NCBI GenBank assembly: GCA_015075175.1 | Contig: JABTUV010000009.1 | Coordinates: 124,001-188,000, forward strand | Length of the DNA: 64,000 nt | From: a bacterium | GTDB lineage: Bacteria; Hinthialibacterota; Hinthialibacteria; H5-UNCL2 | Direction: 5' to 3' | Part shown: piece after piece, positions 27,196-51,943 of the stretch | Layout of the letters: every line of letters begins with the position of its first letter | How positions within the stretch are numbered: position 1 is the first letter of the stretch | Position numbers and translations under genes: made by a program | Notes under the pieces: generated by a model | What the model saw: only the letters and a program-made list of their open reading frames with translations | Databases searched by the model: none | What the model was told of the DNA's origin: nothing

Positions 27196-27333
27196 CTTCG
27201 TCCCTCAATCTCGTCATCGCCTCCACGCATGATTCAACCGTAACCGCACGCCGCAATCACACATCGCCGTCACGGCAAAAAAAATCATCGCAGCAGAGCT
27301 TTGCGGGACTTTTTCCGCTCGTGCGTTTTGTAA

Positions 27334-28636: not shown

Positions 28637-28710
28637 GTAACCGTCCGGTGAAGTGCATCTTCTCAAACGGGGAGGGTGGATCAGGATGGGCGCCATGGAG
28701 GTGGAAACCC

Positions 28711-29640: not shown

Positions 29641-29745
29641 TCGCATGATTCAACCGTAACCGCACGCCGCAATCACACATCGCCGTCACGGCAAAAAAAT
29701 CATCGCAGCAGGGGCAGAGACTTTTCCCCGCTCGTGCGTTTGTAA

Positions 29746-31359: not shown

Positions 31360-31501
31360 CCGCGACGCCAGGACTTCTTTGCCTCCAGCTTCGCTTCAAC
31401 GATTCGAATCTTCCACCCTGACAGGCTTCCGCTTCTGACGGCTGGCACGACCGCGCTCAGCCCCGCGCCTTCCCAGGATGCCTTGCGGACCGAAGCTTTA
31501 C

Positions 31502-31800
31502 CTCCAAGAGCAGCGCCAACTCCGGCGGCGTCGAGAAACAATGCGCGGCGGTCGCGCCGTCGGGAAATGGAAGCGGCCCTTCGCCCCGCCAGCGCTTGTA
31601 CCAGAGGCAGAAGCCGGAGCGAATCAGTAGGATTTTGACGCGGTCCGCGCGCTTGTTGCCAAACACGAAGAGGGTGGCCGGAGGGGATCCTGTTGCAGCA
31701 CGTCACGCGCCCAGGCGGCCAGACCGTCGAAACGCGCCGCGGTCAGGTCGGCGCGGTGCAGGTATAGATGCGCACGCTGGGCGGCAGACTCAACATGGGG
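31502..31800 (-). pseudogene. tnpB: Inverted IS66 TnpB fragment, copy C (3'-truncated)
   Basis: On the minus strand it reads LAALARDVLQQDP-, VFGNKRADRVKIL- and FCLWYKRW-type residues, up to the junction with the right end of copy B at 31501, where the gene is cut near its C-terminus. Confidence 0.7.
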
Positions 31801-31929
31801 ACGCCTCAAGACGGCGATCAGTTTCTGCCAGGGCGGCGGCGGGGTCCCCGTGAATGCGGATACAGCGAGGCGAGGCAGGCGACCTCCAGAGCGGCGGGGC
31901 CCGACCACCGGAGGGCATGGGGCCGCGGA

Positions 31930-32355
31930 CGAAGGGCCAATCAACTGCACCGGGATGAAGGTTTTCTTCTGTCTGCCGCCTTGCGGGCAGGGCAGATGGG
32001 ACGGAGACCTCGCCAGGCCGCATGCGCGTTTGATTGGATGCGGCCACCGCCGGTCGCCCTTCTCCGCCGCGCACTTCATCCATCCCCCACAACACCGCTC
32101 GTCGCTGCTCTTGCGCGCGGTCGACCTGCTGGGATGCGCGGGGAGGACTCGTTGGCGCGTGACGCGCCAGTTCGCACCGCCACCAGCAGGGTCGAGCGGA
32201 ACCGCCTGCCGCCGGCAAACTCGGACTGTGTCAGGCCGCTGGCTACTCACGGTTCAGACGCCGCCAATCCGCTTCACGCCGCCGCGGGACTCCGCGCTTG
32301 CGCTTCTGCCGGCTCGCCGGTGGCCGGGGATTCTGTTCCTGCCTGTTCGTGCCAT
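31930..32355 (-). pseudogene. tnpA: Inverted IS66 TnpA, copy C (variant X isoform), frameshifted
   Basis: Starts MARTGRN-like at 32355. It carries a SEFCRRQAVPL block where copies A and B have REFCEQQKVSL, and a different second half (RPAVAASNQTRMRPGEVSVP). The same variant recurs in copy D. Confidence 0.65.
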
Positions 32356-32432
32356 GGGTTTCTGCACCTCCATGGCGCCCATCCTGATCCACCCTCCTCA
32401 GCTTGAGAAGATGCACTTCACCGGACGGTTAC

Positions 32433-32440
32433 AGATCGAC
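32433..32440. repeat. 8-bp target-site duplication AGATCGAC (right copy)
   Basis: Exact repeat of 28629-28636; outer tnpC resumes here with ATCGACAACAACGTC. Confidence 0.9.
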
Positions 32441-32722
32441 AACAACGTCGCGGAACGCGCCTTGCGGCGGGTGGCGCTTGGACGAAAAAATTGGTTGTTT
32501 GCGGGCAGTGATGAAGGTGGGCGGCGGGCGGCGATCCTCTACACCATGATCGCCAGTTGCCAGCAACATGGAGTGGAACCCTTCGCCTACCTGCGGGACG
32601 TGCTGGCGCGCATCCCGGAGCACTTGCAGAGCCGCATTGAAGAACTCTTGCCGAACCATTGGCACGCGGAGACGCCACGGGCTCCCGTTTCAGCGCACCC
32701 GACCCAACCCAGCAACGGCTGA
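32433..32722 (+). pseudogene. tnpC: IS66 TnpC transposase, copy A, 3' part
   Basis: Continues the interrupted gene with IDNNVAERALRRVALGRKNW, the C-terminal block with the catalytic Glu region of IS66 transposases, then IASCQQHGVEPFAYLRDVLA and a stop at about 32722. This part is free of indels. The element's right end, TTCACCGGACGGTTAC, lies at 32860-32875. Confidence 0.8.
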
Positions 32723-32875
32723 CCTTCGACGGCTAACCGCGACGCCAGGACTTCTTTTGCCTCCCTTTTCCTTCAACGATTCCGAATCTTCAACCTGACA
32801 GGCTTCCATGACGGCTGGCGCCACGACCGCTCCAGCCCCGTGCCTTCCCCAGGAAGTACTTCACCGGACGGTTAC

Positions 32876-33330
32876 CTTCCAGAATAGCGCCAAACTCGGC
32901 GGCGTCGAGCTGCGGAGGCGGTCGCGCCGTCGGGAAATGGAAGCGGCCTTTCGATGCGCTTGTACCAGAGGCGAAGCCAGAGCGATCCCAGTAGAGGATT
33001 TTGACGCGGTCCGCGCTTGTTGCCAAACACGAGAGGTGGCCGGAGCCTGTTGCAGCACGTCACGCGCCAGAGAGCAGCCAGACCGTCGAAGCCGCGCCGC
33101 ATGTCGGTCGGCGCGGTGCACAGATAGATGCGCACGCTGGGCGGCAGACTCAACATGGGGACGCCTCCAAGACGGCGATCAGTTTCTGCAAGAGGGCGGC
33201 GGCGAAGTCCCCGTGAATGCGGATACAGCGCCCCGAGGCGAGCACGACCTCCAGAGCGGCGGGGGCTCCGACCACCGGAGGGCATGGGGCCGCGGAGAAC
33301 GAAGGGCCAATCAACTGCACCGGGATGAAG
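32876..33330 (-). pseudogene. tnpB: Inverted IS66 TnpB fragment, copy D (3'-truncated)
   Basis: On the minus strand it reads VVLASGRCIRIHGDFAAALL, QKLIAVLE, LPPSVRIYLCTAPTDMRRGF and VKILYWDRS-type blocks. It is truncated at the right end of copy A at the same place as copy C. Confidence 0.75.
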
Positions 33331-33743
33331 GGATTTTCTGTCTGTGTGCCTTGCCCAGGCAGGGCAGATGGGACGGAGACCTCGCCAGGCCGCATGCGCG
33401 TTTGATTGGATGCGGCCACCGCCGGTCGCCCCTTCTCCCGCCGCACTTTTCCTCCATCCCCCACAACGCACCGCTCGTCGCTGCTCTTGCGCGCGGTCGA
33501 CTTGCTGGGATGCGATGCGGGGACTCGTTGGCGCTCGCGACGCGCCAGTTCGCACCGCCACCAGCAGAAGGTCGAGAGCGGAACCGCCTGCCGCCGGCAA
33601 AACTCGGACTGTGTCAGGCCGCTGGCTTCCCACTCACGGTTCAGACGCCGCCAATCCGCTTCACGCCGCCGCAGGACTCCGCGCTTGCGCTTCTGCCGGC
33701 TCGCCGGTGGCCGGGGTTCTGCGTTCCTGCCTGTTCGTGCCAT
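33331..33743 (-). CDS. tnpA: Inverted IS66 TnpA, copy D (variant X isoform), open frame
   Basis: ATG 33743 opens MARTGRNAEPRPPASRQKRK, then NREWEASGLTQSEFCRRQ and PLSTFCWWRCELARRER. This is the best-preserved TnpA of the four and shows the HTH-like block intact. The open frame runs on into the tnpB leader without a stop (to 33150). Second-half sequence differs from copies A and B, so the inverted arms come from a related isoform. Confidence 0.65.
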
Positions 33744-33818
33744 GGGTTTCCACCTCCATGGCGCCCATCCTGATCCACCCTCCTCAGCTTGAGAAGATGC
33801 ACTTCACCGGACGGTTAC

Positions 33819-34975
33819 GCTCCGACAACGGTCGGCAGGTCACTCTCTCCTGAGGCTTCGAGAGTCAACCCATCTGTATTCAAGGTAACCTGCTCCCGGT
33901 AAACACCTGTGCCACCTCGATGAAGGTCGCGCCGTACTCTGGATGCGCTGTGACTTGACCGAGCGCGTACGTGATGGTCTTAAACGGGCTGCCCAGACTA
34001 CCGTCGTTGGTATTGTCGCCGTCCGCGTCTGAAACGAAATACGCCGTCGCCACGGTGATGGTCACGCTGGCCGTGGCGCTGTTGTCGGCGTAGTCCGTAC
34101 ACGCGACGATCAATTGATGATAACCCTTTCAGCCGTGGTGGTATCCCAGCCTGGATTGTAACTGCCGGAGGAGAGCCGCCCGTGCCTGCCAGCACCGGAG
34201 GCGCCACGCCATCGTCCTTGTCCCAATAGAGACGACATCGCGAACGCCCAACCCCTCGTCAATGGCCGTCGCCTCCAAGATTTCGACTCCCGCAATCGCC
34301 TCGCCCGTTGTCGGCGAAATGATCGCGCAAGTCGGGTCCGTGGTGTCCGCAGGGGTCGGCGTCGGCGTCTCCGTAGGCGTGTTCGTGGCCGTCGGGGTAT
34401 TGGTCCACGTCCAGGTCGGTGTCCATGTCCACGTCCACGTGGGGTCGGCGTCCACGTCCACGTGGAGTGGGTGTCGGCGTGTTCGTTGCCGTGGGCGTGT
34501 TGGTAAAAAATGGCGTGTCCGTTGGTGTATCCGTCAGGGTGAACGTCGGCGTCGGCGTGTCGGTGTCGGTCGGCGTGGGTGTCGGCGTATGCGTGGTGGT
34601 AGACGTATCGGTTGGCGTCGGCGTCGGCGTGTAGGTCGCCGTCGGCGTGTTGGTCGGCGCGAACGTCGGCGTCCTGATATCGGACCGCCGCCGTAGTGGT
34701 AACCCGCATCCGCCGGATACGAATCCGCGGTCGTGTCTGTGCTCGTATAGCCTGTGTCGGAAGTAGATATCCAGAACCCATCCACAATGTCCACCGCCGG
34801 GCTGGAAGCGCCTGCGCCAAACGCCCCGACGGCAAGGCCGCCGGCATCCTCGAGCATGGCGTAGCGCGCATTCTGGGTGACCATCCTCCCACGACGAGCG
34901 GACGTCGTGCGTACCGTTGGCGTAGTACGTACTCCCGTCCAGCGCGACCCACAAGCACAGAAAGGCGTACATCAT
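33819..34975 (-). pseudogene. Beta-helix protein 1, N-terminal part, truncated by the IS66 composite
   Basis: The start ATG-ATG at 34975 follows a GGCAGGAGTATTC site, 56 bp after the FGE-1 stop. It reads [20 protein letters not shown], then [11 protein letters not shown] and [10 protein letters not shown]-type residues, the Thr/Pro linker, and [20 protein letters not shown], the start of the large beta-helix. It ends at GCTCCGAC, where the IS66 left end is inserted. The sequence is almost identical to beta-helix 3 at 47.5-48.65 kb, apart from single-base indels. The missing downstream part is not on the other side of the IS66 unit. Confidence 0.75.
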
Positions 34976-35031
34976 GAATACTCCTGCCCCGCACACGCGC
35001 CCACGCGATGCGTTGTGTAAAGCACACCCAC

Positions 35032-37629
35032 TCAAGGCATCCACACGAGCCGGAAGCCGTATTCATCCGGGTGAACATCCGGCGCATCGCTGCTGCGGGC
35101 CGCCGAGCGGCAAGTGTTCTGCGAAGGTTCGATGAAATCGCCGCCGCGAAGCACTCGAAGGTTGGTACGGGGCGAGGAGACCCAGGCACTCCCATCGGCA
35201 GGAGCGTCTTGATAACTCCCATGCGCGTCGTCTTCGCACCACTCTCGGACGTTTCCGATGATGTCGTAGAGCCTCCAAGGGTTGGGCAGCTTCAGGCCGA
35301 CGACGTGGGCGTACTGCTCTTGGGCAAAGTATGCATTGACGCCATACCATGCATAGTCATCGATTTCAGTGCCAGAGGGATCATCACCCCAATAGAACCT
35401 CGTCGTTGTCGTGGCGCGGCAGGCGTACTCCCACTCCGCCTCACTCGGCAGGCGGAAGGCCCCCAGACCGAGGCCGTTGAGCTTGTCAAGGAAACCACCC
35501 GCGCCGCGAACATCATTCCACGTGACAATCACCGCCGGGCTGTTGGGATCATCGAGAGCGAGGTAGTGCCCTTGCCAGGGAGTGGTCTCCATCACAGCTT
35601 CCCACTGCGCCTTGGTGATCTCATATTTGCTCATGTAGAAGTCGTAGCTGATGTCCACCTGGTGCTGAGGAGCTTCGATACCGGAACTCCCCTGCTCTCC
35701 GGGATAGCGCCCCATCATGAAACTGCCGGCAGGAATCCGGACCATGGTTAGCGGCGTGGCGTCGTGCGGAAGGCCGGGCAACTGCACGATGATGTCCGGA
35801 TTCTCGGAAATCACCGTGTAGTTTACATTCAGCGACACTCTTTCAGGCAACTGGCTGGTGACGCGGATATGGGTTTCGTAGTCTCCGGTCTGATCCGTAG
35901 GGAAGTTGCTATACCGCGGGATGGCCGCCTTGCCATGCCGCATGAGCACGCTCAACGGGCCGCTGTCGTGCACAAGTGTCCCATCCCTCATCGTTATCCA
36001 CTGGTAGACGACGGGACCATCCCCTGATCCCCCAATTGCGGCGTTCACGGCCGTTTTCTCGCCCTGTACTACCGTCATCGGAAGACACGCGCCCAACGTG
36101 ACGGATTCCACGTAACCAGTAGATGGTTCGACAAAATAGCTCGCGCGCGGCGAATCCACGTAGGGAGGCGGAGCGGTAGTACGGATGAAGGATTCATAGA
36201 AGCCCCATGGGTCGGTGGGAAAGCGGTTATAGGAAGGGATGGTCGCCGCGCCGTCCGCCATTTGCACGAGGTGCCCGCTGTCATCGACAAGCATACCGTT
36301 TCTCTGGGTCACCCAATGGTAGACGACAAGGCCGCTGCCTCCGCCCGACAACGCGCCGTCATTGGAGACGCTGCCCCACTGCAGCACTGTCGGAGGCGTA
36401 AACGAACCCACCGACACGGCATCCACGGGTCCCGTGGCTGGCTCCGCCGTCCATGCGACACGAAATCCTAGATTGGGAAAGGCGTAGCTACTGGACGACC
36501 AAGCGGAGCGTGCCGCCGAACGACAGTCTGATGGGTGGCCCAAATAATACCCTCCTCGCTGCACGCGACCTCCTGAGCCAGTTGTCCAAGCGCTTCCATC
36601 ACTCGGCGCACCTTGGTAGTCCACGTGACCCCGATCCTCGCACCACTCCAACGCGTTGCCGCTCATATCATGAAGTCCCCAGGCGTTAGGTAGCTTTAGT
36701 CCGACCACATGCGCGTACCGCTCGAGCCCGCGCGTGTCAGCGAAGTACCAGGCGTACTTGTCTATCTGTGAACCATCGAGATCATCTCCCCAGTAGAAGC
36801 GCGTCGTCGTCCCGGCTCGGCACGCGTACTCCCACTCCGCCTCGCTGGGCAGGCGGAACGTACCGAGCCCTAACGCATTAAGATTATCTAGAAATCCACT
36901 TGCGCTCCGGATGTTATCCCACGTAATACCCACCGCCGGGCTGTTCGGATCGTCGCTGACATCATATACGCCTTCCCACGGTGTGGTCCCCATGACTGCC
37001 TGCCACTGCGCCTTGGTGATTTCATACTTGCCCATGTAGAAGTCGTATCCGATATTCACCTCATGTTGAGGCTCCTCATCACTGGTCCCACCCACTTCGC
37101 CGAGATAGTGACCCATCATGAAACTGCCCGCCGGGATCTTCATCAAAGTCAAGGGTGTGGCATCCTGTGGCAGGCCGGAGATGTCGATGATAATCTCGTC
37201 GGAGAGCGTTGTCGGTGCCAGCCAAGTTGGCGTTGGCGTCTCGGTCGGTGTGGGCGTCTCCGTAAAGGTCGGCGTTGCCGTGGGCGTTTCCGTCGCCGTG
37301 TTGGTCCAAGTTGGCGTCGGCGGCGGGATCAGCGTGAATGTGGCACTCGGCGTAACGGTCGGAGTCGCTGTACTGGTTTCGGTCGGTGTATCGGTAGCCG
37401 TCGGCGTCGGACTGGTCGCTTCTTTCCAGTGTGCAATCACATAGAGAATATCGGCTTCACCTACGATGCCATCCCCATTGTAGTCACCCGCACCGCCCGA
37501 CGTACTCTGCCAGCTCTCGGCGATGTTGAGAAGGTCCCCACGGTCGATACGACCGTCGCTGTAGCCCACCATGGCGCAGCAGAAAAGCAATACCCATCCA
37601 GCTACAAATAAAAGCGAAGGTCGCTTCAT
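35032..37629 (-). CDS. FGE-1: secreted protein with N-terminal dockerin-like repeats and two FGE-sulfatase-fold domains
   Basis: 865 aa. The signal peptide ([20 protein letters not shown]) is followed by a dockerin-like pair: [14 protein letters not shown] and [20 protein letters not shown] with Asp/Asn at calcium positions. A Thr/Pro linker spans about residues 73-125. Domain 1 (about 145-400) has [49 protein letters not shown] and NLGFRVAW. A beta-rich region (about 405-620) precedes domain 2 (about 620-865), with the same order of motifs ending in [10 protein letters not shown]. The fold is that of formylglycine-generating enzyme and C-type-lectin-like DGR proteins. The FGE catalytic cysteine pair is not evident, so binding is more likely than catalysis. 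The stop lies 56 bp before beta-helix 1. Confidence 0.85.
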
Positions 37630-37658
37630 CAGTATTTCCTAATATCCCCGGCCACCCG

Positions 37659-37774
37659 TCAATAGTGAGACTCGAAAGCGCCGATATCCGTTGTGCCATT
37701 GTTATAGGGAACTGTCGTTTGTCTAGTGAAATCGACATCAGGGTGTATCTCGTTCGCTCCCGAATTGACGGGCG
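37659..37774 (-). pseudogene. Beta-helix protein 2, C-terminal end (separated by the IS3 insertion)
   Basis: Reads PVNSGANEIHPDVDF, then NNGTTDIGAFESHY and a stop. This is homologous to the end of beta-helix 3 ([11 protein letters not shown]...DIGAFEYH). It joins the main part at 40336 once the IS3 pair is removed, giving SPAV-NSGANEIHPDVD across the site. Its stop lies 29 bp before the FGE-1 start. Confidence 0.8.
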
Positions 37775-37835
37775 TGCCCCCTGTAAACTTTACCAGTGGG
37801 AATGTTAGGATCTCCTGTCAACAGGAGGGTCCAAG

Positions 37836-38098
37836 ATGAAGAGGAGTCGGTACAACGAGGAGCGATCATCCGGATTCTGCGGGAGGCGGAGGCCACGGTC
37901 GTTCTGGGCGGAGGTGTGCCGCAAGCAGGGCATTAGCGAGCAGACCCTTCTACCGCTGGCGTCGAAGCTCGGGGAAATGAGCGTTCCGGAGGCCTCGTCG
38001 GCTGCGGGAACTGGAGCGGGAAAACAGTCAGTTGAAGCGGATGGTGGCGGAGCGGGACCTGGAGATCGAAACGATCTGGGGCTGTTAAGAAAGTGGTA
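37836..38098 (+). pseudogene. IS3 OrfA (HTH_Tnp_1-like), copy 1, frameshifted
   Basis: Starts MKRSRYNEE, then CRKQGISEQT-type HTH residues and ERDLEIET near the end, spread over frames. Ribosome-binding site CAGGAGGGTCC upstream. The A-rich slippage run of copy 2 is shortened here (AAGAAAGTGG). Confidence 0.65.
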
Positions 38099-39110
38099 AC
38101 GGCGCAACAGCGTCGCGAGAGCGTGGACTTGCGCCAAGCGACGCGGCCTCTCCGGAACGACGCGGTTGCGCCCTTGCGAGATCAGCCGTCCCGGTTACTA
38201 CCAGCCGCAGCGCGACGATACGGTTCTGGCCAGGCGCTTCTGGGCGAGATCGCCCGGGGCGCAAAGTGGGCCGGTTATCGCACCGCCTGGGGAGTGCTGA
38301 GGCTGGAAGGAAGTCATCAACCCCAAACAGGTGCACCGGGTGTGGCGCCAGGAAGGCTTGTCCCAATCCAGGCGCAGGAAGCGCCGGCGACGTGGGAGGG
38401 AGTCCAACCCCTTGCGGGCCGAGTATCCGGACCACGTCTGGACTACGACTCGGCATGGAGGATGCCACGGCAGGCCGCAAGCTGCGGGTGTTGACGCTGG
38501 TGGATGAGCACACCCGCGAATGCCCGGTGATCAGCGGATCGCAGGATGAAGGCCAAGGATGTGATCCGCGCTGGAGAGGGTGATGAGTGGGGAGCGCCCC
38601 CAGTACCTGCGCAGCGACAACGGCCCAGGTTCATCGCCAAGGCGCTCTCGACCTGGCTGTCAGGCGCAGGGCGTAGACGCACCACATCGATCCGGGCAGT
38701 CCGTGGCAGAATCCCTCGGGGAGAGCTCGGCAGGCTGCGGGACGAGTGCTTGAACCTGAACTGTTCCAGAATCTCTTGGAGGCGAAGGTGGTCGTCGAGG
38801 AGTGGCGCAAAAGACTATTAACCTGGCCCGGCCGCACAGCAGCCTGGGTTACCGCACCCCGCGCAGTTCCTGCCGCCGCCTGGCTGAAGGATGAGGGGCC
38901 TGCCCCGAACCCCGGAGTTTATCGCTTTCCGGCCTCCCGGAGAGCCAGCAAACGAAAGGCAGGGATGGACGTCTCCCTGCCCCTCTCCGTACAGGCACCG
39001 GCCGCGGCGCTCGGGTCGCTCTCCAGCGGAGCCCTATCCTCCGGGCCGGCAAGAGAACTCTATCACGCGGGGGCTGAGGTCGACAACTCCGCCTTGGTGC
39101 GGGCATCATA
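38093..39110 (+). pseudogene. IS3 OrfB transposase, copy 1, frameshifted
   Basis: Fragments QQRRESVDLRQATR, EYPDHVW-, TLVDEHTRECPV, YLRSDNG- and ECLNLELFQ-type blocks occur in changing frames. Same protein as the intact copy 2. Confidence 0.7.
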
Positions 39111-39246
39111 ACCCCGGAGGACTAACATTCCCGGTGGTAAACAAAATGGGGGCTGGACAGCGGGAACTGGAGCGGGAAAACAGTCAGTTGAAGCGGATGG
39201 TGGCGGAGCGGGACCTGGAGATCGAAACGATCAAGGGGCTGTTAAG

Positions 39247-39253
39247 AAAAAAG
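39247..39253 (+). promoter_or_regulatory. Probable programmed -1 frameshift site between orfA and orfB
   Basis: AAAAAAG, the slippery heptamer A-AAA-AAG used by IS3 elements to make the OrfAB fusion transposase. It lies just before the orfA stop (39257-39259). Confidence 0.6.
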
Positions 39254-40302
39254 TGGTAACGGCGCAACAGCGTCGCGAGAGCGTGGACTTCGCCAAGCGA
39301 CGCGGCCTCTCGGAACGACGCGGTTGCGCCTTGCTTGAGATCAGCCGTCCCGGTTACCACTACCAGCCGCAGCGCGACGATACGGCCCTGGCCAGGCGCT
39401 TGGGCGAGATCGCCCGGGAGCGCAAGCGGGCCGGTTATCGCACCGCCTGGGGAGTGCTGAGGCTGGAAGGGGAAGTCATCAACCCCAAACGGGTGCACCG
39501 GGTGTGGCGCCAGGAAGGCTTGTCCCAGCCTAGACGCAGGAAGCGCCGGCGACGTGGGGAGAAGAGTCCAACCCCCTTGCGGGCCGAGTATCCGGACCAC
39601 GTCTGGACCTACGACTTCATGGAGGATGCCACCGCGGAAGGCCGCAAACTGCGGGTGTTGACGCTGGTGGATGAGTACACGCGCGAATGCCCGGTGATCG
39701 AGGTAGACCGCAGGATGAAGGCCAAGGACGTGATCCGGGTGCTGGAGAGGGTGATGAGTGGGGGGAGACGCCCCAAGTACCTGCGCAGCGACAACGGCCC
39801 GGAGTTCATTGCCAAGGCGCTCTCGACCTGGCTGTCGAAGCGGGGCGTAGAGACGCACCACATCGATCCGGGCAGCCCGTGGCAGAATCCCTTCGGGGAG
39901 AGCTTCAACGGGCGGCTGCGGGACGAGTGCTTGAACCTGGAACTGTTCCAGCATCTCTTGGAGGCGAAGGTGGTCGTTGAGGATTGGCGCAGAGACTACA
40001 ACCTGGCCCGCCGCACAGCAGCCTGGTTACCGCACCCCGCGCAGGCTCCGTGCGGCGTGGCTGAAGGATGCGGGCCTGCCCCGAACCCCGGAGTTTATCG
40101 CTTTCCGGCCTCCCGGAGAGAGGACCAACAAACGAAAGGCAGGGATGGACATCTCCCTGCCCCCTCTCCGTGGGCAGGCCCGGCCACGGCGCTCGGGTCG
40201 CTCTCCAGCGGGCTATCCTCCGGGCCGGCAAGAGAACTCTATCACGCGGAGATGAGGTCGACAACCCGCCCTGGTGGCGGGCATCATAACCCGGAGGACT
40301 AA
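39253..40302 (+). CDS. IS3-family OrfB transposase, copy 2
   Basis: 349 codons. An HTH_21-like region (LSERRGCALLEISRPGYHYQ) precedes the rve integrase core: WTYDFMEDAT (first Asp), LRSDNGPEFIAKALSTWL (second Asp) and NPFGESFNGRLRDECLNLEL (Glu). The D-D-E triad and spacing are intact. The last part should read as the family's R-P-H-S-S-L-G-Y-R-T-P, but a deletion near 40012 shifts the frame (RRTAAWLPHPAQ), so the natural stop is earlier (about 40100) in the neighbouring frame. It would be made by -1 frameshifting from orfA, whose start is missing here, so it is probably not expressed normally. Confidence 0.85.
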   Translation: MVTAQQRRESVDFAKRRGLSERRGCALLEISRPGYHYQPQRDDTALARRLGEIARERKRAGYRTAWGVLRLEGEVINPKRVHRVWRQEGLSQPRRRKRRRRGEKSPTPLRAEYPDHVWTYDFMEDATAEGRKLRVLTLVDEYTRECPVIEVDRRMKAKDVIRVLERVMSGGRRPKYLRSDNGPEFIAKALSTWLSKRGVETHHIDPGSPWQNPFGESFNGRLRDECLNLELFQHLLEAKVVVEDWRRDYNLARRTAAWLPHPAQAPCGVAEGCGPAPNPGVYRFPASRREDQQTKGRDGHLPAPSPWAGPATALGSLSSGLSSGPARELYHAEMRSTTRPGGGHHNPED

Positions 40303-40335
40303 CATTCCCGGTGGTAAACAAAATGGGGCTGGACA

Positions 40336-43122
40336 TGACGGCCGGCGAGAAAACGCTACTCAATGCAAATCCGAAGGGCGGATTGCCGGTGTTTACGAAC
40401 CCGGATCCCCCACGGGCTGTTCTGATCGAAGTGGTTGCTGCCGTGGTTTCAGCCAAAACGTCCTCGTCCGATCAGAGCCGTCGACTTCCACGGGGCCTAC
40501 ATCCGCGACGCTTGATAGAACAGGTTATAGTTGCATACGTTCGTGATGCCGCTTGGTTCGTAATCGTAGTATTTCACACACCTTCCGGACCCGTCGGGAG
40601 CAAGAATGTTATTGTAGAACGTGTTCTGGCTGCAATTTGCGTGATAGCCGCCGAAGAAGATTTCTGTATCGAACTCGCTCCCGCTGGTCCCTCCTCCTGG
40701 CGAGCCGTTGTAGTTATGGTATAGCGTGTTGTTGTAAACCTGGTTGCCGGTAGCCGTCTCGACGCCGCTGGACAGACAGGAGACGGTGATGCCACCATCG
40801 TTGCCGTGGCAGATATTGCTGTAGACATCGCACTCATCCGCGTTGTAGACGTAGATTCCCCGACCTCCATTGTCGTAGAGGTAGTTGCGGTAGACTTGGG
40901 CGCCGTTGGCATTGAAATCCACCGCGATGCCTCCACCGTCGTCGGTACCGTTACCCGCGATGCAGTGGGAGACGGTATTATCGTGAACGAGCGCCGCGAC
41001 AAAAGGGCCTCTGAGGATCCGTCCCCGATTGACCGCCGTCGTTGAGGTGGATTCCACATGAGGCGTTCTTCTTCGTGGCCCGCCCAACGTACTCAGCGGC
41101 CATCGCCCAAGCGATTGCAGTATGAGATAATATTGTCGTGGATGTCAATCTCACCGCTGGCATAGTCGGCGCCGCGAGCTTTGTACACTGAGATGCCCGC
41201 CTGCCCGCATTGGGACAGCACGTTGCCCCAAATCGCGACCTCGGTACCGGAAGTAATGGTCGCGTCGACGTAGATGCCGTGGAGCCGGTGTAATAGATAT
41301 AGTTATCGCTGACCTCGGCCGTCGCGCCGACAGTACCGGTGAGACGGATTCCATAACTCTGAAATGCGGGCGCGTCATTGTTCGCCGTGTACTGATCCGC
41401 CGAGTACCAGATGCCGTTGCCGATAATCCGGCAGCGTGTGGCCTTGCTGACGATTCCGCTCACCAGAGCGTAGCGCGTGGCCTCTCCGACATCGTAGGAC
41501 GCGGTGCCGCAGCCGAACGTGCAGCCGACGATGGAAACGTCCGCGGCATGACTGCCGACGTAAACGGCGGCGTTGTTCTCCCGATCTCGCCACGCCTTGC
41601 TCCGAACCAGCGGTCTTCGAGCGTGGCCCACGAAGCATAATCGGCGACATGGACATTGGTGCCCCTGCTCCGGATGAAATGGAATCCGCGGAACGTCGTT
41701 CCGTTGTGGTTGTTGAAGTGGACGCGGTGGTCGCGCAATGGGTACTCCAGCGTCCATACCTCGTTCGGATCGTGTTGAGTCTCCATAAACATAAAGCGAC
41801 TGCGTGCCCGCATCCCAATACCAGTCGCGCAACGCGTTAAGGTCCCCAGCGAGGTTCTCGCTGGCGCCGCGTGGATTACCAAAAAGAGTTGGCTTCGGAT
41901 CGGACGCAACCGAGGGCGCCCCAAATCATACCGGAGTGATACGTCCATGTAGGCGCGAATGACGTTGCTCCGACAACGGTCGGCAGGTCACTCTCTCCCT
42001 GAGGCTTCGAGAGTCAACCCATCTGTATTCTAAGGTAACCCGCTCCCGGTAAACACCTGTGGCACCTCGATGAAGGTCGCGCCGTACTCTGGATGCGCTG
42101 TGACTTGACCGAGCGCGTACGTGATGGTCTTAAACGGGCTGCCCAGACACCGTCGTTGGTATTGTCGCCGTCCGCGTCTGAAACGAAATACGCCGTCGCC
42201 ACGGTGATGGTCACGCTGGCCGTGGCGCTGTTGTCGGCGTAGTCCGTACGCGACGATCAATTGATGATAACCCTTTCAGCCGTGGTGGTATCCCGCTGGA
42301 TTGTAACTGCCGGAGGAGGAGCCGCCCGTGCCTGCCAGCACCGGAGCGCCACGCCATCGTCCTTGTCCCAATAGAAGACGACATCGCGAACGCCCAACCC
42401 CTCGTCAATGGCCGTCGCCTCCAAGATTTCGACTCCCCGCAATCGCCTCGCCCGTTGTCGGCGAAATGATCGCGCAAGTCGGGTCCGTGGTGTCCGCAGG
42501 GTCGGCGTCGGCGTCTCCGTAGGCGTGTTCGTGGCCGTCGGGTATTGGTCCACGTCCAGGTCGGTGTCCATGTCCACGTCCACGTGGGGTCGGCGTCCAC
42601 GTCCACGGGGAGGGATGTCGGCGTGTTCGTTGCCGTGGGCGTGTTGGTAAAAACTGGCGTGTCCGTTGGTGTATCCGTCGGGGTGAACGTCGGCGTCGGC
42701 GTGTCGGTGTCGGTCGGCGTGGGTGTCGGCGTATGCGTGGTGGTAGACGTATCGGTTGGCGTCGGCGTCGGCGTGTAGGTCGCCGTCGGCGTGTTGGTCG
42801 GCGTGAACGTCGGCGTCCTGATATCCGGACCGCCGCCGTAGTGGTAACCCGCATCCGCCGGATGCGAATCCGCGGTCGTGTCTGTGCTCGTATAGCCTGT
42901 GTCAGAGTAGATATCCGAGAAACCCATCCACAATGTCCACCGCCGGGCTGGAAGCGCCTGCGCCAAACGCCCCGACGGCAAGGGCCGCCGGCATCCTCGA
43001 GCATGGCGTAGCGCGCATTCTGGGTGACCATCTCCTCCCGACGAGCGGACGTCGTGCGTACCGTTGGCGTAGTACGTACTCCCGTCCAGCGCGACCCACA
43101 GGCAAAGAACGGCGTACATCAT
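40336..43122 (-). pseudogene. Beta-helix protein 2, main part, frameshifted and interrupted by the IS3 pair
   Basis: The start ATG-ATG at 43122 ([20 protein letters not shown]) has a GGCAGGAGTATTC site, 56 bp after the FGE-2 stop. Order: a short N-terminal region, a Thr/Pro/Trp linker, a beta-sandwich ([20 protein letters not shown]), then the beta-helix. From 43100 to about 41420 it is nearly identical to beta-helix 3; identity then drops, and 40340-41030 is a clearly different homologue (IFFGGYHANCSQNTFYNNIL against [20 protein letters not shown]). It is cut at SSVFSPAV by the IS3 block; the last codons are at 37774-37659. Many one-base indels occur in the part shared with beta-helix 3. Confidence 0.8.
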
Positions 43123-43178
43123 GAATACTCCTGCCCCGCACACGCGCCCACGCGATGCGCTGTGTAAAGCACACCTGC

Positions 43179-45785
43179 TCATGGCGTCCACACGAGGCGG
43201 AAGCCGGTATCGTACGAACCCGTGATTTTGAAACGGCGCGACGCCGAACGACACTCCTTGGCGCGGCTGCCCCAATATCCACCGCGAACAACACGCATGT
43301 TCGCCTGTCCTCCGGTGGTCCAGGCACTTCCATCGGCGGGGGCTCCCTGGTAGGTTGAGTGCTGCACATCCTCGCACCATTCATACGCATTGCCGCACAT
43401 ATCGTACAGTCCCCAGGGATTGGGGTGCTTTCCGCCTACTACGTGGGCATACCATTCACCGAGGTGCTGTGTGTTGAAAAGGAAATACCAAGCGAAATCG
43501 CTCACTTCGGCGTCGCCGGGGTCGTCACCCCAATAGAACCGCGTGGTGGTCGTGCCTCGGCAGGCGTATTCCCACTCTGATTCGCTCGGCAGGCGAAAAG
43601 TCCCCAGGCCCAGGGCATTGAGCCTGTCCAGAAAACCGTTCGCCTGGCGGATACTATCCCAGGAGATGTACACCGCCGCGCTGTTGGAAGCGCCCAGCAC
43701 GTAGTTCTGGCCCTGCCACGGGGCGGTTCCCATCACCGCTTCCCACTGGGCCTTCGTGAGCTCGTACTTGCTCATGTAGAAATCGTAGCCGAAGTTGACT
43801 ACGTGCTGAGGATCTTCTTCGGCAATACTCCCCTGCTCCCCCGGATAACGTCCCATCATGAAGCTGCCGGAGGGAATCCTGACAAATGTCAACGGTGTAG
43901 CATCTTGTGGAAGGCCGGGCAGCTGGATGATGATATCCGGGCTTTCGGAAACGACGGTGTAATTGACGTTCAGCGAAATCCACTCGGGCGTCTGGCTCGT
44001 GACGCTAATGTACGTCTGATAGTCGCCTGTCGCGTCGGTCGGGAAGTCGCTGTACCGTGGGATGTCCGCCTTCCCGTGACGCATGAGCACGTGCAGCGGA
44101 CCACTGTCATGTATTGGCGTACCGTTCCTCTCCGTCATCCAGTGGTAGACCACCGGCCCGTCACCCAAACCGGAAAACTCCCCGTTGATGGAGGTTGTCG
44201 CTCCCTGTACCACCGTGATGGGCAGGAACGCGCCAAAGGTGACGGATTCCACGTACCCCGTGGACGGCTCTACGGTATAGCTGGCAGCCTCGGATTCCAG
44301 GAGCGACGGATACGTCACATCTACGAAAGATGTATAAGTCCCCCATGGGTCGGTGGGAAAGCGGCGGTATGTAGGAAGGCTCGCCTCTCCACTTGCCATG
44401 AGTACGGTCAACGGACCGCTGTCATGAACCGGCGCGCCTTCCCTCTGTGTCATCCAGTGATAGACCGCAATGCCAGAGCCCGTCCCCGAGAAGATACCGT
44501 CATTGGAAACGCTGCCCCATTGCAAAGCCGTCGGAGGCGAAAACGATCCCACCGAGGCAGAACGCACATATTCCGATGCCGCTCCCACCGACCACGCTGC
44601 TCGGAAGCCGAGGTCGTGACCAGCATGGGCAACGCCAGGTGCAAACCGTACAGCCGAGCGGCAGATGGACGGCTGTTCGAAATAGTCGCCGCCCCGGGCC
44701 ATTCGCAGGATGGGATTCCCCCCGGTTGTCCAGGCGCTCCCATCGGTGGGCGCACCCTGATAGTTTGCATGGTAAACATCCTCGCACAATTCTTCAACAT
44801 TGCCGCTCATGTCGCAAAGTCCAAAGGCGTTGGAAAGCTTCAATCCCACCACGTGCGGGTAGTCCTCCTCGAACGGCCCCTGCGTATTTGCGTGATACCA
44901 CGCGTAGTCGCCAATCTCCGTCCCATCGAGGTCGTCACCCCAGTAGAATCGCGTCGTTGTCCCCGCCCGGCAGGCGTACTCCCACTCCGCCTCGCTGGGC
45001 AGGCGAAATGTCCCCACACCGAGCATGTTCAGCTTGTCCAAAAAGCCGCTTGCCTCCCGAATGTCATTCCAGGAGACAAAACAGGCCGGGCTGTTCGGGT
45101 CGACTAGAACGTCATTCTGTCCTTCCCAAGGCGTCGTGCCCATCACGGCCTGCCACTGCGCCTGGGTCACCTCGTACTTGCCCATATAAAAGTCGTGGCC
45201 GATGTTCACCTGGTGTTGAGGGTCTTCGCTCGCAAAGCTGTCCTGCTCCCCTGGATAACGGCCCATCATGAAGCTGCCGGCGGGAATCCTTACCAGCGTC
45301 AGCGGCGTCGCATCCACCGGCAGGCCCGGTATCTGGACGATGATTTCGCTTGGCAGTTCTGCCACCGTCGGTGGTGGAGTCGGTGTTGGGGTTGGCGTTG
45401 CGGTATCGGTCGGACTCGGAGTCGAGGTAGGTGTTGGAGTGAACGTCGCAGTCGGGGAGGCGGTGGAAGTCGGCGTCCAGGTCATGGAAGGTGTCCGACT
45501 AGGCGTATCCGTCGGCGTCGCTGTGGCCGTCGCGGTTGGGCTCGCCGTGTCCGTTGGAGTCGCTGTCGGGCTCGTCGCTTCTTTCCAGTGTTGGATAACA
45601 TAGAGCACGTCCGCCTCGTCGACCACCCCATCGCCGGTGAAGTCGCCCGGCCCGCCCATCGTACTCTGCCAGTTCTCGGCGATGTTCAGCAGGGCCTGCC
45701 TGTCGATGCGACCGTAGATCTGCCCGGCGACAGCGCAGCACAGAAACACGATCAGGAACGGAGCCGAAAGGAGCCGCCGTTTCAT
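43179..45785 (-). CDS. FGE-2: secreted protein with dockerin-like repeats and two FGE-sulfatase-fold domains
   Basis: 868 aa, paralogue of FGE-1 with the same layout: a signal peptide (SAPFLIVFLCCAVAG), dockerin-like RIDRQALLNIAENW and GDFTGDGVVDEADVLYVIQH, a Thr/Pro linker (about 75-130), FGE domain 1 ([49 protein letters not shown]), a beta-rich spacer, and FGE domain 2 ([50 protein letters not shown]). Its ATG overlaps the beta-helix 3 stop (TGATG), so translation is coupled. It is clearly diverged from FGE-1 although the neighbouring beta-helix genes are near-identical. Like FGE-1 it lacks an obvious catalytic Cys pair. Confidence 0.85.
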   Translation of the reverse strand: MKRRLLSAPFLIVFLCCAVAGQIYGRIDRQALLNIAENWQSTMGGPGDFTGDGVVDEADVLYVIQHWKEATSPTATPTDTASPTATATATPTDTPSRTPSMTWTPTSTASPTATFTPTPTSTPSPTDTATPTPTPTPPPTVAELPSEIIVQIPGLPVDATPLTLVRIPAGSFMMGRYPGEQDSFASEDPQHQVNIGHDFYMGKYEVTQAQWQAVMGTTPWEGQNDVLVDPNSPACFVSWNDIREASGFLDKLNMLGVGTFRLPSEAEWEYACRAGTTTRFYWGDDLDGTEIGDYAWYHANTQGPFEEDYPHVVGLKLSNAFGLCDMSGNVEELCEDVYHANYQGAPTDGSAWTTGGNPILRMARGGDYFEQPSICRSAVRFAPGVAHAGHDLGFRAAWSVGAASEYVRSASVGSFSPPTALQWGSVSNDGIFSGTGSGIAVYHWMTQREGAPVHDSGPLTVLMASGEASLPTYRRFPTDPWGTYTSFVDVTYPSLLESEAASYTVEPSTGYVESVTFGAFLPITVVQGATTSINGEFSGLGDGPVVYHWMTERNGTPIHDSGPLHVLMRHGKADIPRYSDFPTDATGDYQTYISVTSQTPEWISLNVNYTVVSESPDIIIQLPGLPQDATPLTFVRIPSGSFMMGRYPGEQGSIAEEDPQHVVNFGYDFYMSKYELTKAQWEAVMGTAPWQGQNYVLGASNSAAVYISWDSIRQANGFLDRLNALGLGTFRLPSESEWEYACRGTTTTRFYWGDDPGDAEVSDFAWYFLFNTQHLGEWYAHVVGGKHPNPWGLYDMCGNAYEWCEDVQHSTYQGAPADGSAWTTGGQANMRVVRGGYWGSRAKECRSASRRFKITGSYDTGFRLVWTP

Positions 45786-48700
45786 CAGTGATACTCAAAA
45801 GCGCCGATATCTACCCTCGGCCCCTGTGGAATCGTCGTGCCGATAAAGTCGACATCCGGATGTAGGCCATCAAGGCTACCTTTATCCTTAGCGTTTCCAC
45901 CAGTGCTGGTCAATGCAAAACCGAAGGGTGGACTGCCGGAGTTGACGAACCCCGGTACCCCCGTCTGGCTCTGCTGATCGAACAACTTGTCCGGGTCGTT
46001 CTTCCAGTCGTACCAAGTGATCTGTTCCAATGACCAATTGACGACCCTGTAGTCCGTATCGGTAGCTGCGTACACAACGTTGTAGTTGCAGATGTTCGTG
46101 CCATGCGTTGCCCAGATGATGCAATATCCGGCCGGGTCGGCGACGAGAATGTTGTTCTCGAATATGTTGTCGGTACAATTGTCAGTGCTGCCGCCAAACC
46201 AGAGTTCCGTGTTGTAGCCGTGTCCGGGACTCCCGTTGTAGTTCTGGTAAAGCGTATTATTGTAAACCCTGTTACCCATGGCCGTCTCGCTCGCGTCACT
46301 TGTGCAAGAAACGGAAATACCCGCGTCATTCCCGAAGCAGATATTGCTGTAGACATCGCACTCATCCGCGTTATAGACGTAGATTCCCCGACCTCCATTG
46401 TCGTGGAGGTAGTTGCGATACACCTGTGCTCCATTGGCATTGAAATCCACCGCGATGCCTCCGCCGTCATTGGTGCCATTTCCTGCAATGCAATGGGAGA
46501 CGGTGTTATCGTGAACGAGCGTCGCGACAAAGGGCTTCTGAGGATCTATCCCCGATTGACCGCCGTCGTTGAGGTGGATTCCACACGAGGCGTTCTTCAT
46601 CGCGACCCCGCCCAACGTACTCAGCGGCCCATCGCCCAGGCGGTTGCAGTATGAAATAACGTTGTCGTGGATGTCAATCTCACCGCTGGCGTAATTCGTG
46701 CCGCGGGCCTTGAACACCGAGATGCCCGCCTGCCCGCATTGGGACAGCACGTTGCCCCAAATCTCGACTTCGGTACCGGAAGTAATGGTCGCATCAACGT
46801 AGATGCCGTGAGAGCCGGTGTAATAGATATAATTGTTGCTGACCTCGGCCGTCGCGCCGACCACGCCGGTAAGACGGATTCCATAACTCTGAAACGCGGG
46901 CGCGTCGTTGTTCGCCGTGTACTGATCCGCCGAGTACCAGATGCCGTTGCCAATAATCCGGCAGCGTGTGGCCTTGCTGACGATTCCGCTCACCGAAGCG
47001 TAGCGCGTGGCCTCTCCGACATCGTAGGACGCGGTGCCGCAGCCGAACGTGCAGCCGACGATGGAAACGTCCGCGGCATGACTGCCGACGTAAACGGCGG
47101 CGTTGTTCTCCCCGATCTCCGCCACGCCTTGCTCGAACCAGCAGTCTTCGAGCGTGGCCCACGAAGCATAATCGGCGACATGGACATTGGTACCCTTGCT
47201 CCGGATGAAATGGAATCCGCGGAACGTCGTTCCGTTGTGGTTGTTGAAATGGACGCAGTGGTCGCGCAATGGGTACTCCAGCGTCCATACCTCGTTCGGA
47301 TCGTAAGTTGAGTCTCCATAAACATAAAGCGACTGCGTGCCCGCATCCCAATACCAGTCGCGCAACGCGTTAAGGTCCCCCAGCGAGTTCTCGCTGGCGC
47401 CGCGTGGATTACCAAAAAAGAGTTGCTTCGGATCGGACGCAACCGAGGCGCCCCAAATGTTACCGGAGTGATACGTCCATGTAGGCGCGAATGACGTTGC
47501 TCCGACAACGGTCGGCAGGTCACTCTCTCCTGAGGCTTCGAGAGTCAACCCATCTGTATTCAAGGTAACCTGCTCCCGGTAAACACCTGTAGCTACCTCG
47601 ATGAAGGTCGCGCCGTACTCTGGATGCGCTGTGACTTGACCGAGCGCGTACGTGATGGTCTTAAACGGGCTGCCCAGACTACCGTCGTTGGTATTGTCGC
47701 CGTCCGCGTCTGAAACGAAATACGCCGTCGCCACGGTGATGGTCACGCTGGCCGTGGCGCTGTTGTCGGCGTAGTCCGTACACGCGACGATCAATTGATG
47801 ATAACCCTTTTCAGCCGTGGTGGTATCCCAGCTGAATTTGTAACTGCCGGAGGAGAGCTCGCCCGTGCCTGCCAGCACCGGAGGCGCCACGCCATCGTCC
47901 TTGTCCCAATAGAAGACGACATCGCGAACGCCCAACCCCTCGTCAATGGCCGTCGCCTCCAAGATTTCGACTCCCGCAATCGCCTCGCCCGTTGTCGGCG
48001 AAATGATCGCGCAAGTCGGGTCCGTGGTGTCCGCAGGGGTCGGCGTCGGCGTCTCCGTAGGCGTGTTCGTGGCCGTCGGGGTATTGGTCCACGTCCAGGT
48101 CGGTGTCCATGTCCACGTCCACGTGGGAGTCGGCGTCCACGTCCACGTGGGAGTGGGTGTCGGCGTGTTCGTTGCCGTGGGCGTGTTGGTAAAGCTTGGC
48201 GTGTCCGTTGGTGTATCCGTCGGGGTGAACGTCGGCGTCGGCGTGTCGGTGTCGGTCGGCGTGGGTGTCGGCGTATGCGTGGTGGTAGACGTATCGGTTG
48301 GCGTCGGCGTCGGCGTGTAGGTCGCCGTCGGCGTGTTGGTCGGCGTGAACGTCGGCGTCCTGATATCCGGACCGCCGCCGTAGTGGTAACCCGCATCCGC
48401 CGGATACGAATCCGCGGTCGTGTCTGTGCTCGTATAGCCTGTGTCGAAGTAGATATCCAGAAACCCATCCACAATGTCCACCGCCGGGCTGGAAGCGCCT
48501 GCGCCAAACGCCCCGACGGCAAGGCCGCCGGCATCCTCGAGCATGGCGTAGCGCGCATTCTGGGTGACCATCTCCTCCCACGACGAGCGGACGTCGTGCG
48601 TACCGTTGGCGTAGTACGTACTCCCGTCCAGCGCGACCCACAGGCACATCCGGGTTCCCTCCGCGATCTCGTCCAATCGATCTCGATCCACGTAGATCGT

Positions 48701-48793
48701 CAGGTCCGTGTCGTTGCGGAAGCGCACCTTGAAACTCGCCATACCGGAAGAGACCTCCGTGTCCCCAAAGTCGCGCCAGATGCAGATCAGCAT
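45785..48793 (-). CDS. Beta-helix protein 3: giant secreted-type protein with Thr/Pro/Trp linker and parallel beta-helix
   Basis: 1002 aa from the first usable start (48793), but the frame is open upstream (AADIYDGDVSVSYQANEIDE) and no signal peptide is seen, so this is probably the C-terminal part of a longer protein joined to the 49295-51943 gene. Order: a beta-rich domain (about 1-145), a low-complexity linker (about 146-253) of Thr-Pro and Thr-Trp pairs, a beta-sandwich-like domain (about 255-340), then a DUF1565/beta-helix region starting [20 protein letters not shown] with repeats such as [20 protein letters not shown] and [17 protein letters not shown]. It ends DFIGTT...DIGAFEYH. This is the intact reference copy for beta-helix 1 and 2. 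Confidence 0.85.
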
Positions 48794-49294
48794 GTCGCCC
48801 TCATCGATCTCGTTCGCCTGGTAGGATACCGAGACGTCCCCGTCATAGATATCGGCCGCCGCCTGTAGTGGTAATCTGGAAAATATACGTCCCAGAGGAG
48901 TTTGATATCGTCGAGAGCGCGTATGGCATGCGCCAGTTATCAGTGCTGGTAGGCCAATTGGTCACCGTGTTGATTGCGCTGGTACTGTTCTCGGCCTTCA
49001 TGCATCGCGAGCGGGCGCGCGACACGTCCCCGGCATTCTGGGCCAACAAGAACCCGTTTACTGCGGCAGCGGGATCTCCTGTATCGCTGACGAAGAGTGG
49101 ATTGAGGGACGTGGAGTAGGGTGGGTGTCATTCACCCCAAGGTTAATGCTCCGTGTCGACGTTCCGGTTCGCATCGATACCGTTGCTCCAGAAGAGATTG
49201 TCATTCCCCACCGTTGCAGTTTACGGTCTGGTACGAGGCGGCGCAGGAACTATCTCCCTTAACGCCATGTTGCGTATTGGCGAAAATGCAGCGA
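48794..49294 (-). other. Frame-broken coding stretch joining the two large beta-helix reading frames
   Basis: No single frame is open, but beta-helix-like coding pieces follow one another on the minus strand: HLYNGNYGLYLHGAFIRRVE (starting about 49360), SLNPLFVSDTGDPAAAVNGF, LLAQNAGD, and AADIYDGDVSVSYQANEIDE leading into 48793. The SDTGDP..NGFLLAQNAGD motif usually closes a beta-helix. I infer that at least three indels break one gene of about 2000 codons (51943 to 45785). Confidence 0.5.
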
Positions 49295-51943
49295 TTAGCT
49301 TCGTGTTCCACGCGCCTGATGAACGCGCCATGCAGGTACAATCCATAGTTGCCGTTGTAGAGGTGTTATTATACGACTTGAGTAATAGTATCCCGCGTCG
49401 TTAGCCGCGTTACCAAGCAAATATGCGTAGCCGGTCCAGTCGACAAAAAGGTTGTTCCGGATCGTCAGAGGATTATTCTGCGGATTGGTGTAATAGTAGA
49501 GGCAACAGCAGGAGTTGTTGCACTCGAACATGTTGTTCTCAATCGGATTGTTCCACAGGCTCGTCGCGCCCGAGGGGGCCCACTGATAGATCGCGACATT
49601 GAAGTGGCGGAAGATGCAAAACGCTATTTGATGATTCGTGCTTGTTGCACCGTAGAACTGAATCGAGTTGACGTCGTCATTATTCGCCGTACGGCTACCG
49701 AAGAAGTTGGTTCCAAGATAGTAGGCGGAATCGAACAGGATCATGTCCGTTGCCGTACCCTCGGCGAGGAGCTTGGCATTGGCGCCGGAAAACTGCAGGA
49801 TGGGCAAGTATGCCGTGTTCGAAGGACGGAAGAACGATACTACCACACCAGGATCCACCGTGAGCTGCGCGGTGACGGCGACGGTCTTGTCGCCTGATCC
49901 CGCGTTGTCGGCGACAAGGTAATCGACGCGGGGATGGTGGTAACCGAGATCGAGGCCATCGGGGTCTACTTCACCATCGTTCAGAATCTCCCACGCTGCT
50001 GTGCTACTGATCGGGGCGTTGACGTCGATGTGGTGGGGTGCAATTGTAGTCCGGTTCGCTAAGACATATCCGTTAAGTGTTCCCTCTCCGGCATCGAGGA
50101 AGTCGGAGGTCGAATCGAGGTAGTAGCTGCCGTTGCCGTTGTCCTGGTCGAACGTGGTCCCCGTCTCTTCGATGGACCCCCAGAAGCCTTGGGCAAACAT
50201 GCCGGTAAACCAATCGCTCTCACCGCTCCCGACACTGCTGAAGCCATTATTGTCCAGATCGAGTGTCCAGGATTCAGGGGCTTCGTCCGGATCGTAGAAG
50301 CCGTAATCGCAGTCGGCTATGATGTTGTCCGTCGTCACCAAGTCCATGCATATCCCGGCGTCGGTGCGCTGAACTGCAACTGCTGCATCGTTGCAGTCGT
50401 CGATCGTATTCGCGTAGAGTTCGAGCCCGAAGGTTCCGTACCCATCCACGGCGAATGCGTGAGCGAAAACCCCGCAGTCACAGTCGTAGATGAGATTGTT
50501 CGTTGCATTGAGCCTGGAGGGTCCCGTTTCCGGGATGCTGTGTTTACTGTCGCCGCCATCGCACTCAAGGAAGATCGCGTTGCCGTTCTGCGCGAAGACG
50601 TTGTCACGCACGGGTTCCGTCAAGGTGGAGCCGTAGAGATAGAGCGCGTGCGAGGCATAGCGGAAGCGGCAATTCTTGATTTCCGATGGATTGTCGGTCG
50701 CTTCGTTGAAATAGAACGCACTCAGATACCCACCTACAGCCGGAGCCTCCTCGGTAACGTCAACGCCGTTACCTTCGTCCGCCAGGGACGTAATGAAGAT
50801 GGGCATATAGGGATCGCCTACGGCTTGCACCTCGGCGCCGTCTTCCACGATAATGCACTCGTCGTTGTTGCCGTCGTAGTCGCTTCCGATCTTTACCACG
50901 GCGCCTGGCTGAATCACCAGGTGGTCTCCGTCATTGAGCGTGTACTGATCGGAGACCCACCAGGTCTTGCTCCGGTCCCACACCTCGGAGCCGACGGCGC
51001 TCTGGGTCTTCTCCACGTAGTCGATGGTTACTGGGAAGGTCATTTCCGCGAGGGTGGTATAGGGAATACCCTCCAGCAGGAATATACCGCCCTCCTCGCG
51101 CACGACGCGCTTGAAAACCGTGAGTTGCCTGTGCGGTGCGGCCGAGTCCCATGCCTTGCCGGTGGCCAGGTAGTGGACAATGAGCCCGTTGTTGTCCCGG
51201 AAGGTGAACTTCTTCGCTTCCATCGCGGCGACCGATTCCAGGTTTACTCCATCGCCCCAAAGTGTCCGCTCGGAGCCGCCGCAGTCGATTTGCGTGACGA
51301 CCACCAGGAAAGTGCTCGAAGCGTCCATCCCCAGACCCGCTGGGGCCGGCAGCCGCTGCGGGTCCTTCAGAACTACGTTCTGCTTCAGGATGGTATTGTC
51401 ATTGACGTACTCCACGTCGGCTCCCGGGAATGCACCGGGATAAATGATGCGATTGGGGGCGGAGCCGTACCTGGGATCCACGTTCTGCACGTTCGCGAGA
51501 ACTCGCCTGGCCCCGGTTGACCGATCGAAATAGGCAAGGGAGCGGATGCCGAGGTGAATGCTGCGTCCGCCGATCTCATACTCGGCGTTCATCCCCCCCA
51601 ACGGAGCAAAGCGTACCTTGGCACGCTGGCGCGTGGCCTCCAGGAAGTAGCCGGGCTTGGAGGACAGCGTGATGTCCGTGTTTACACGTTGCCACACGCC
51701 GGATTCGTCCAGGTAGTTGATGTCCGTACCCTTTTCAACAACGGTGCGTGTCACTTCAAGGATCTCGGGAGTGGGGAGTAGGGACGCGTCTTCTCGGTAG
51801 ACGTACTCGTGCACGCGCGTATGCGCACTTCGCTTACCGACGAGTTCGCGAGCGCTGATCAACTCCGCCTGACTGAACGAGCAAAGCGAAACTACGACGG
51901 CCCAAGCGAGAATGCTGGGCAGGGAGCGAAGGAAGCGTGCCAT
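49295..51943 (-). CDS. Large secreted beta-helix protein (probable N-terminal part of a giant gene)
   Basis: 882 aa with signal peptide (RSLPSILAWAVVVSLCSFSQA, cleavage before EL). Residues about 25-290 form a beta-rich region without a recognised domain (GVWQRVNTDITLSSKPGYFL). From about residue 300, LNDGDHLVIQPGAVVKIGSD starts a beta-helix with repeats like IKNCRFRYASHALYLYGS, LNATNNLIYDCDCGVFAH and IENNMFECNNSCCCLYYY. The last 20 residues (ITPLQRQLWIVPAWRVHQAR) are out of frame; the adjacent frame reads HLYNGNYGLYLHGAF and continues the repeat. It is the first gene of the alternating beta-helix/FGE array, and the promoter should lie in the 51944-52328 gap. Confidence 0.8.
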   Translation of the reverse strand: MARFLRSLPSILAWAVVVSLCSFSQAELISARELVGKRSAHTRVHEYVYREDASLLPTPEILEVTRTVVEKGTDINYLDESGVWQRVNTDITLSSKPGYFLEATRQRAKVRFAPLGGMNAEYEIGGRSIHLGIRSLAYFDRSTGARRVLANVQNVDPRYGSAPNRIIYPGAFPGADVEYVNDNTILKQNVVLKDPQRLPAPAGLGMDASSTFLVVVTQIDCGGSERTLWGDGVNLESVAAMEAKKFTFRDNNGLIVHYLATGKAWDSAAPHRQLTVFKRVVREEGGIFLLEGIPYTTLAEMTFPVTIDYVEKTQSAVGSEVWDRSKTWWVSDQYTLNDGDHLVIQPGAVVKIGSDYDGNNDECIIVEDGAEVQAVGDPYMPIFITSLADEGNGVDVTEEAPAVGGYLSAFYFNEATDNPSEIKNCRFRYASHALYLYGSTLTEPVRDNVFAQNGNAIFLECDGGDSKHSIPETGPSRLNATNNLIYDCDCGVFAHAFAVDGYGTFGLELYANTIDDCNDAAVAVQRTDAGICMDLVTTDNIIADCDYGFYDPDEAPESWTLDLDNNGFSSVGSGESDWFTGMFAQGFWGSIEETGTTFDQDNGNGSYYLDSTSDFLDAGEGTLNGYVLANRTTIAPHHIDVNAPISSTAAWEILNDGEVDPDGLDLGYHHPRVDYLVADNAGSGDKTVAVTAQLTVDPGVVVSFFRPSNTAYLPILQFSGANAKLLAEGTATDMILFDSAYYLGTNFFGSRTANNDDVNSIQFYGATSTNHQIAFCIFRHFNVAIYQWAPSGATSLWNNPIENNMFECNNSCCCLYYYTNPQNNPLTIRNNLFVDWTGYAYLLGNAANDAGYYYSSRIITPLQRQLWIVPAWRVHQARGTRS

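Follow-up and report, generated by a model that had tools for sequence, protein, structure and literature searches.

The window analysed here, a 64,000-nucleotide stretch of DNA (C49:124001-188000) in an assembly of 4.98 Mb (49 contigs, estimated 84% complete), carries on its minus strand a striking alternation of giant beta-helix genes (BH) and genes combining a dockerin-like segment with a double FGE fold (FGE). This alternation raises the question of whether the two kinds of protein work together, as the original prediction had proposed from the strict order and spacing of five genes, or whether the arrangement has another origin.

Layout of the locus

Inspection of the sequence confirmed the order BH3, FGE-2, BH2, FGE-1 and BH1 on the minus strand (Table 1). 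However, the locus does not consist of five intact genes. Among the gene positions described between 51943 and 33819, only FGE-1 and FGE-2 are intact as annotated, and BH1 and BH2 are partial, broken copies. The predicted junctions were present: the FGE-2 start overlaps the preceding stop at 45785 in the sequence TGATG, and a 29-bp gap separates the BH2 stop (37659) from the FGE-1 start (37629). The 56-bp spacers from each FGE gene to the ATG of the next beta-helix copy were also found, but BH1 and BH2, being without a long open frame, do not stand as genes. Promoter and terminator scans of the locus gave results at chance level (10 versus 6.6 ± 2.8; 15 versus 13.7 ± 3.1), and therefore neither support nor refute an operon.

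Table 1 Features of the locus and members of the giant beta-helix family. Positions are those of the window unless a contig (C) is given.
Feature	Position	Strand	Description
BH3	45785..51943	-	Fusion of a giant beta-helix gene with a Thr/Pro linker and a further beta-helix domain
BH3, part homologous to the giant paralogues (~1280 aa)	48374..51943	-	Paralogues on C48, C45 (two) and C1 (two); broken copy on C2
FGE-2	43179..45785	-	868 aa; signal-peptide-like start, dockerin-like segment, Thr/Pro linker, FGE domain, ~200-aa middle, FGE domain
BH2	37659..43122	-	Partial copy of the 3' part of BH3; many frame breaks; interrupted by 38004-40335
Two head-to-tail IS3-family copies	38004..40335	+	Inserted in BH2; transposase identified
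FGE-1	35032..37629	-	865 aa; architecture as in FGE-2
BH1	33819..34975	-	Partial copy of the 3' part of BH3; broken frame; cut off abruptly by an IS66 copy
Array of IS66-family copies and fragments	26204..33829	+	Truncates BH1
Giant beta-helix family members	C48:67-71 kb, C45:168-171 kb, C45:191-195 kb, C1:935-939 kb, C1:11-14 kb; C2:87-90 kb		C2 member broken

The beta-helix genes and inserted elements

The original prediction treated 49295-51943 and 45785-48793 as beta-helix sequences. Both are, but they form one gene with two frame breaks. The two ORFs lie in the same frame and are parted by breaks near 49380 and 48880; when paralogues were mapped onto BH3, the match ran in frame -1 to 49385, in frame -3 from about 49376 to 48858, and then in frame -1 again. 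We assign both ORFs to a single gene because the reading frame of paralogues on other contigs (~1280 aa) runs through both breaks without interruption. These giant paralogues end at the motif DAGYHYxGW, where BH3 continues into its Thr/Pro linker and second beta-helix. The beta-helix of 45785-48793 was matched in Pfam by PF13229 and DUF1565. In a structure model of the 882-aa ORF at 49295-51943 (moderate confidence; pLDDT mostly 60-85 up to residue 550), residues 318-604 aligned with the folds of polygalacturonase, pectate lyase and tailspike proteins (Z scores of 17-18; rmsd of about 3 Å), which supports a right-handed parallel beta-helix. In both its Pfam and fold matches, BH3 thus resembles secreted, pectate-lyase-like proteins of this fold. 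Unlike these, its giant N-terminal family is nearly confined to this genome: among 290 genomes searched, matches were found here and, as N-terminal fragments, in one distant genome only.

BH1 and BH2 copy the BH3 region 46233-48648, the copied part starting at 48648, and the C-terminus of BH2 picks up again past the IS3 pair. The IS66-family copies that truncate BH1 stand head-to-tail (26204-28636, 28634-31050, 31043-32443 and 32433-33829); many frame-breaking indels separate them, and the array is possibly an assembly artefact. A 135-bp piece of the IS3-family element also occurs in inverted orientation at 5610-5742.

Elsewhere in the window, a further beta-helix protein of 883 aa is encoded at 12597-15248 (+); the gene after it (15370-16704, +) specifies a PPC-domain protein whose C-terminus carries a weak dockerin.

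The FGE-fold proteins

FGE-1 and FGE-2 share 64% amino acid identity. The predicted double FGE fold was recovered by Pfam as two PF03781 domains in each protein, with whole-protein scores of 273.6 and 285.7 bits against a cut-off of 23.3. Their dockerin-like segments scored 18.0 and 19.1 bits in the protein scan, just below the cut-off of 22.9, and 22.9 and 32.7 bits in the genome scan once neighbouring in-frame matches were joined. The segment is degenerate, the DxN part being missing from the first repeat. The middle of FGE-2 (~200 residues) was all-beta in a low-confidence structure model (mean pLDDT 48.6), which was used for this segment only. With signal-peptide-like starts, the linker and the dockerin-like segment, the secreted, Thr/Pro-linked and dockerin-bearing nature proposed for these proteins holds, export being a prediction from their N-termini.

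The relatives of the FGE-fold domains in the PDB are PvdO, a Treponema variable protein, PorK and FGE itself. Both domains of both proteins match the PF03781 family strongly. What differs is that the FGE cysteine pair is not present and that the domains are placed, two to a protein, around an all-beta middle in one secreted, dockerin-bearing chain. The reference motif of the bacterial enzyme 6muj is GSYLCHDSYC, the cysteines of which we take to be the catalytic pair of FGE. The first catalytic cysteine is absent from all four FGE-fold domains; therefore, FGE-1 and FGE-2 are not expected to be formylglycine-generating enzymes. This catalytic role was rejected, the fold being present but the active-site pair absent. 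A sequence search of the genome contigs collection with FGE-2 returned distant FGE proteins only, and a literature search on dockerin together with FGE found no paper in the library covered.

Origin of the alternation and state of the copies

DNA comparisons show that the locus was duplicated. Segment 40705-43104 is 94% identical to 46233-48646, and 33819-34959 is 98% identical to 47499-48648. Segment 33819-35062 is 96.7% identical to 41967-43210 across an FGE 3' end and the 56-bp spacer. The spacing is beyond chance and the 56-bp spacers are identical because this is duplicated DNA, not because of an independent constraint. The best explanation for the alternation, and quite probably the right one, is thus that a beta-helix/FGE unit was duplicated in tandem, with later IS hits and broken beta-helix copies. 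This unit would have comprised a gene for a secreted beta-helix protein and a gene for a secreted protein with a dockerin-like segment and double FGE fold, and its copies would be BH3-FGE2, BH2-FGE1 and BH1, the remainder of the last unit being lost. The FGE copies would then have diverged as intact genes, while the beta-helix copies would have been partly homogenised or recopied recently and subsequently struck by the IS3 and IS66 elements. A single recent duplication is contradicted by the FGE pair, whose 64% amino acid identity contrasts with 94-98% DNA identity of the beta-helix copies. Gene conversion, several events or mis-assembly must therefore be added. A striking gene alternation can accordingly be left behind by tandem duplication and need not be a sign of functional pairing.

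Whether the beta-helix copies are truly broken is a separate matter. Compared with BH3, all 24 indels of BH2 and all 10 of BH1 break the frame (135 and 12 substitutions, respectively), whereas none of 13 does so between FGE-1 and FGE-2 (825 substitutions). The IS66 and IS3 copies at the locus show a comparable excess of frame-breaking indels; the ratio of indels to substitutions is 0.2-0.8 in the repeated DNA (BH, IS66 and IS3 copies) versus 0.02 in the FGE pair. Indels in such excess, with no substitutions to match, speak for consensus error in repeated DNA and not for long decay, and residual indels are, according to PMC9262707, a known problem of long-read sequences. The substitutions between BH3 and BH2 fall into two patterns. 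In 46233-46900, 55 of 88 are at codon position 3, and both copies were therefore once under protein-level selection; in the near-identical stretch 46901-48646 they are flat across codon positions (17, 14 and 16), and the frame breaks there stem either from errors left in the consensus of an unpolished repeat or from very recent decay. We lean slightly towards the explanation that long-read metagenome assembly produced the frame breaks as artefacts, and possibly some of the repeat structure and the IS tandems as well; in the organism, the beta-helix copies would then be intact except for the IS insertions. Against it, frame breaks also occur in DNA that was not found repeated here (48793-49295, and partner genes on C48 and C45). 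This explanation concerns the state of the beta-helix copies and is compatible with tandem duplication. It also serves as a warning that broken copies may be assembly errors.

Two functional readings of the locus were weighed against duplication. In one, selection would maintain the alternation as a functional operon, and every FGE protein would be a partner dedicated to the beta-helix protein encoded next to it. The tight spacing on one strand, the TGATG overlap, the lack of internal promoter signals above chance, the intact FGE genes and the third-position bias, by which BH2 was once maintained, agree with such an operon. We nevertheless consider it unlikely, on the evidence of gene neighbourhoods in five genomes, namely this one and four relatives from its class. 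Of the 85 FGE places in them, only 5 have a beta-helix match within 5 kb, the window being one of the five, compared with roughly 2-3 expected from the density of beta-helix matches (a rough estimate). The count of five is a lower bound, since the beta-helix profile misses divergent members; the beta-helix of the window itself, missed by the profile search at its threshold, was added to the neighbour list by hand. No beta-helix was found directly beside the closest dockerin-FGE paralogues (C49:88-90 kb and C12:84-88 kb), nor was an FGE gene found beside the giant beta-helix paralogues of the genome. In these genomes the homologues thus mostly occur without each other, an outcome that the original prediction had itself named as refuting the FGE/beta-helix partnership. 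The strict alternation, coming from one duplicated unit with broken 3' copies, is not the sign of partnership for which it had been taken. In the other reading, the FGE-fold domains would be targets of a diversity-generating retroelement (DGR), that is, variable C-type-lectin-fold domains displayed on secreted fibres. The variable protein of Treponema denticola is indeed the second-best PDB match. However, the only reverse transcriptase in the assembled, 84%-complete genome (C1:1172931-1173479) is of the retron type, its best profile matches in family scoring being retron and related, and it lies far from any FGE gene; moreover, the window was found to contain no template repeat nearly identical to the FGE 3' ends. 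We therefore rejected the DGR hypothesis as highly improbable.

A recurrent giant beta-helix pair

The pairing that recurs in this genome is another one. At C48, both C45 loci, C1:935 kb and the broken C2 copy (four clear loci and one broken), the next gene starts at or near the stop of the giant gene. The product of this partner gene has a Thr/Pro linker and a beta-helix, ends in a dockerin at those loci whose frame is intact, and contains no FGE domain. The giant gene at C1:11-14 kb showed no such partner. Two of the partner proteins are 44% identical. We consider this giant beta-helix/dockerin pair a better lead to a surface assembly system in this unstudied lineage than the FGE alternation, because its members diverge (33-44% identical) but keep their order.

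The second beta-helix of BH3 had no detectable sequence relationship to the partner beta-helix of the paralogous loci. A plain fusion of the two genes found at the other loci therefore does not account for the window, and this origin was discarded. Tentatively, the pair may represent an undescribed, nearly private two-gene module of a ~1280-aa giant beta-helix protein and a Thr/Pro-linker beta-helix-dockerin protein, together forming a cohesin-docked surface fibre system, of which the window would be a rearranged version with fusion, FGE-fold neighbours and tandem copying in place of the second gene.

Possible function of the encoded proteins

The FGE and beta-helix proteins are most likely noncatalytic surface or matrix proteins, and may bind glycans. 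We infer that, after export, the FGE/C-type-lectin-fold domains would bind a ligand, and that the beta-helices would act as rigid stalks or as glycan-binding or glycan-processing domains. The dockerin-like segment could dock on cohesin-bearing proteins of the same cell. The genome contains 51 dockerin-like and 8 cohesin-like matches at E <= 0.01, which makes a cohesin-dockerin assembly of secreted or surface proteins plausible. In the presence of these cohesin-like domains and of a dockerin-like segment with a Thr/Pro linker, the system resembles type I cohesin-dockerin networks, both cellulosomal and non-cellulosomal. Unlike in those networks, the dockerin is degenerate and near the Pfam cut-off, and no glycoside hydrolase domain was found on these proteins. 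At C1:995-997 kb, a dockerin-FGE gene is immediately preceded by a gene for a protein with a cohesin-like domain and a Thr/Pro linker; the frame apparently changes between the two.
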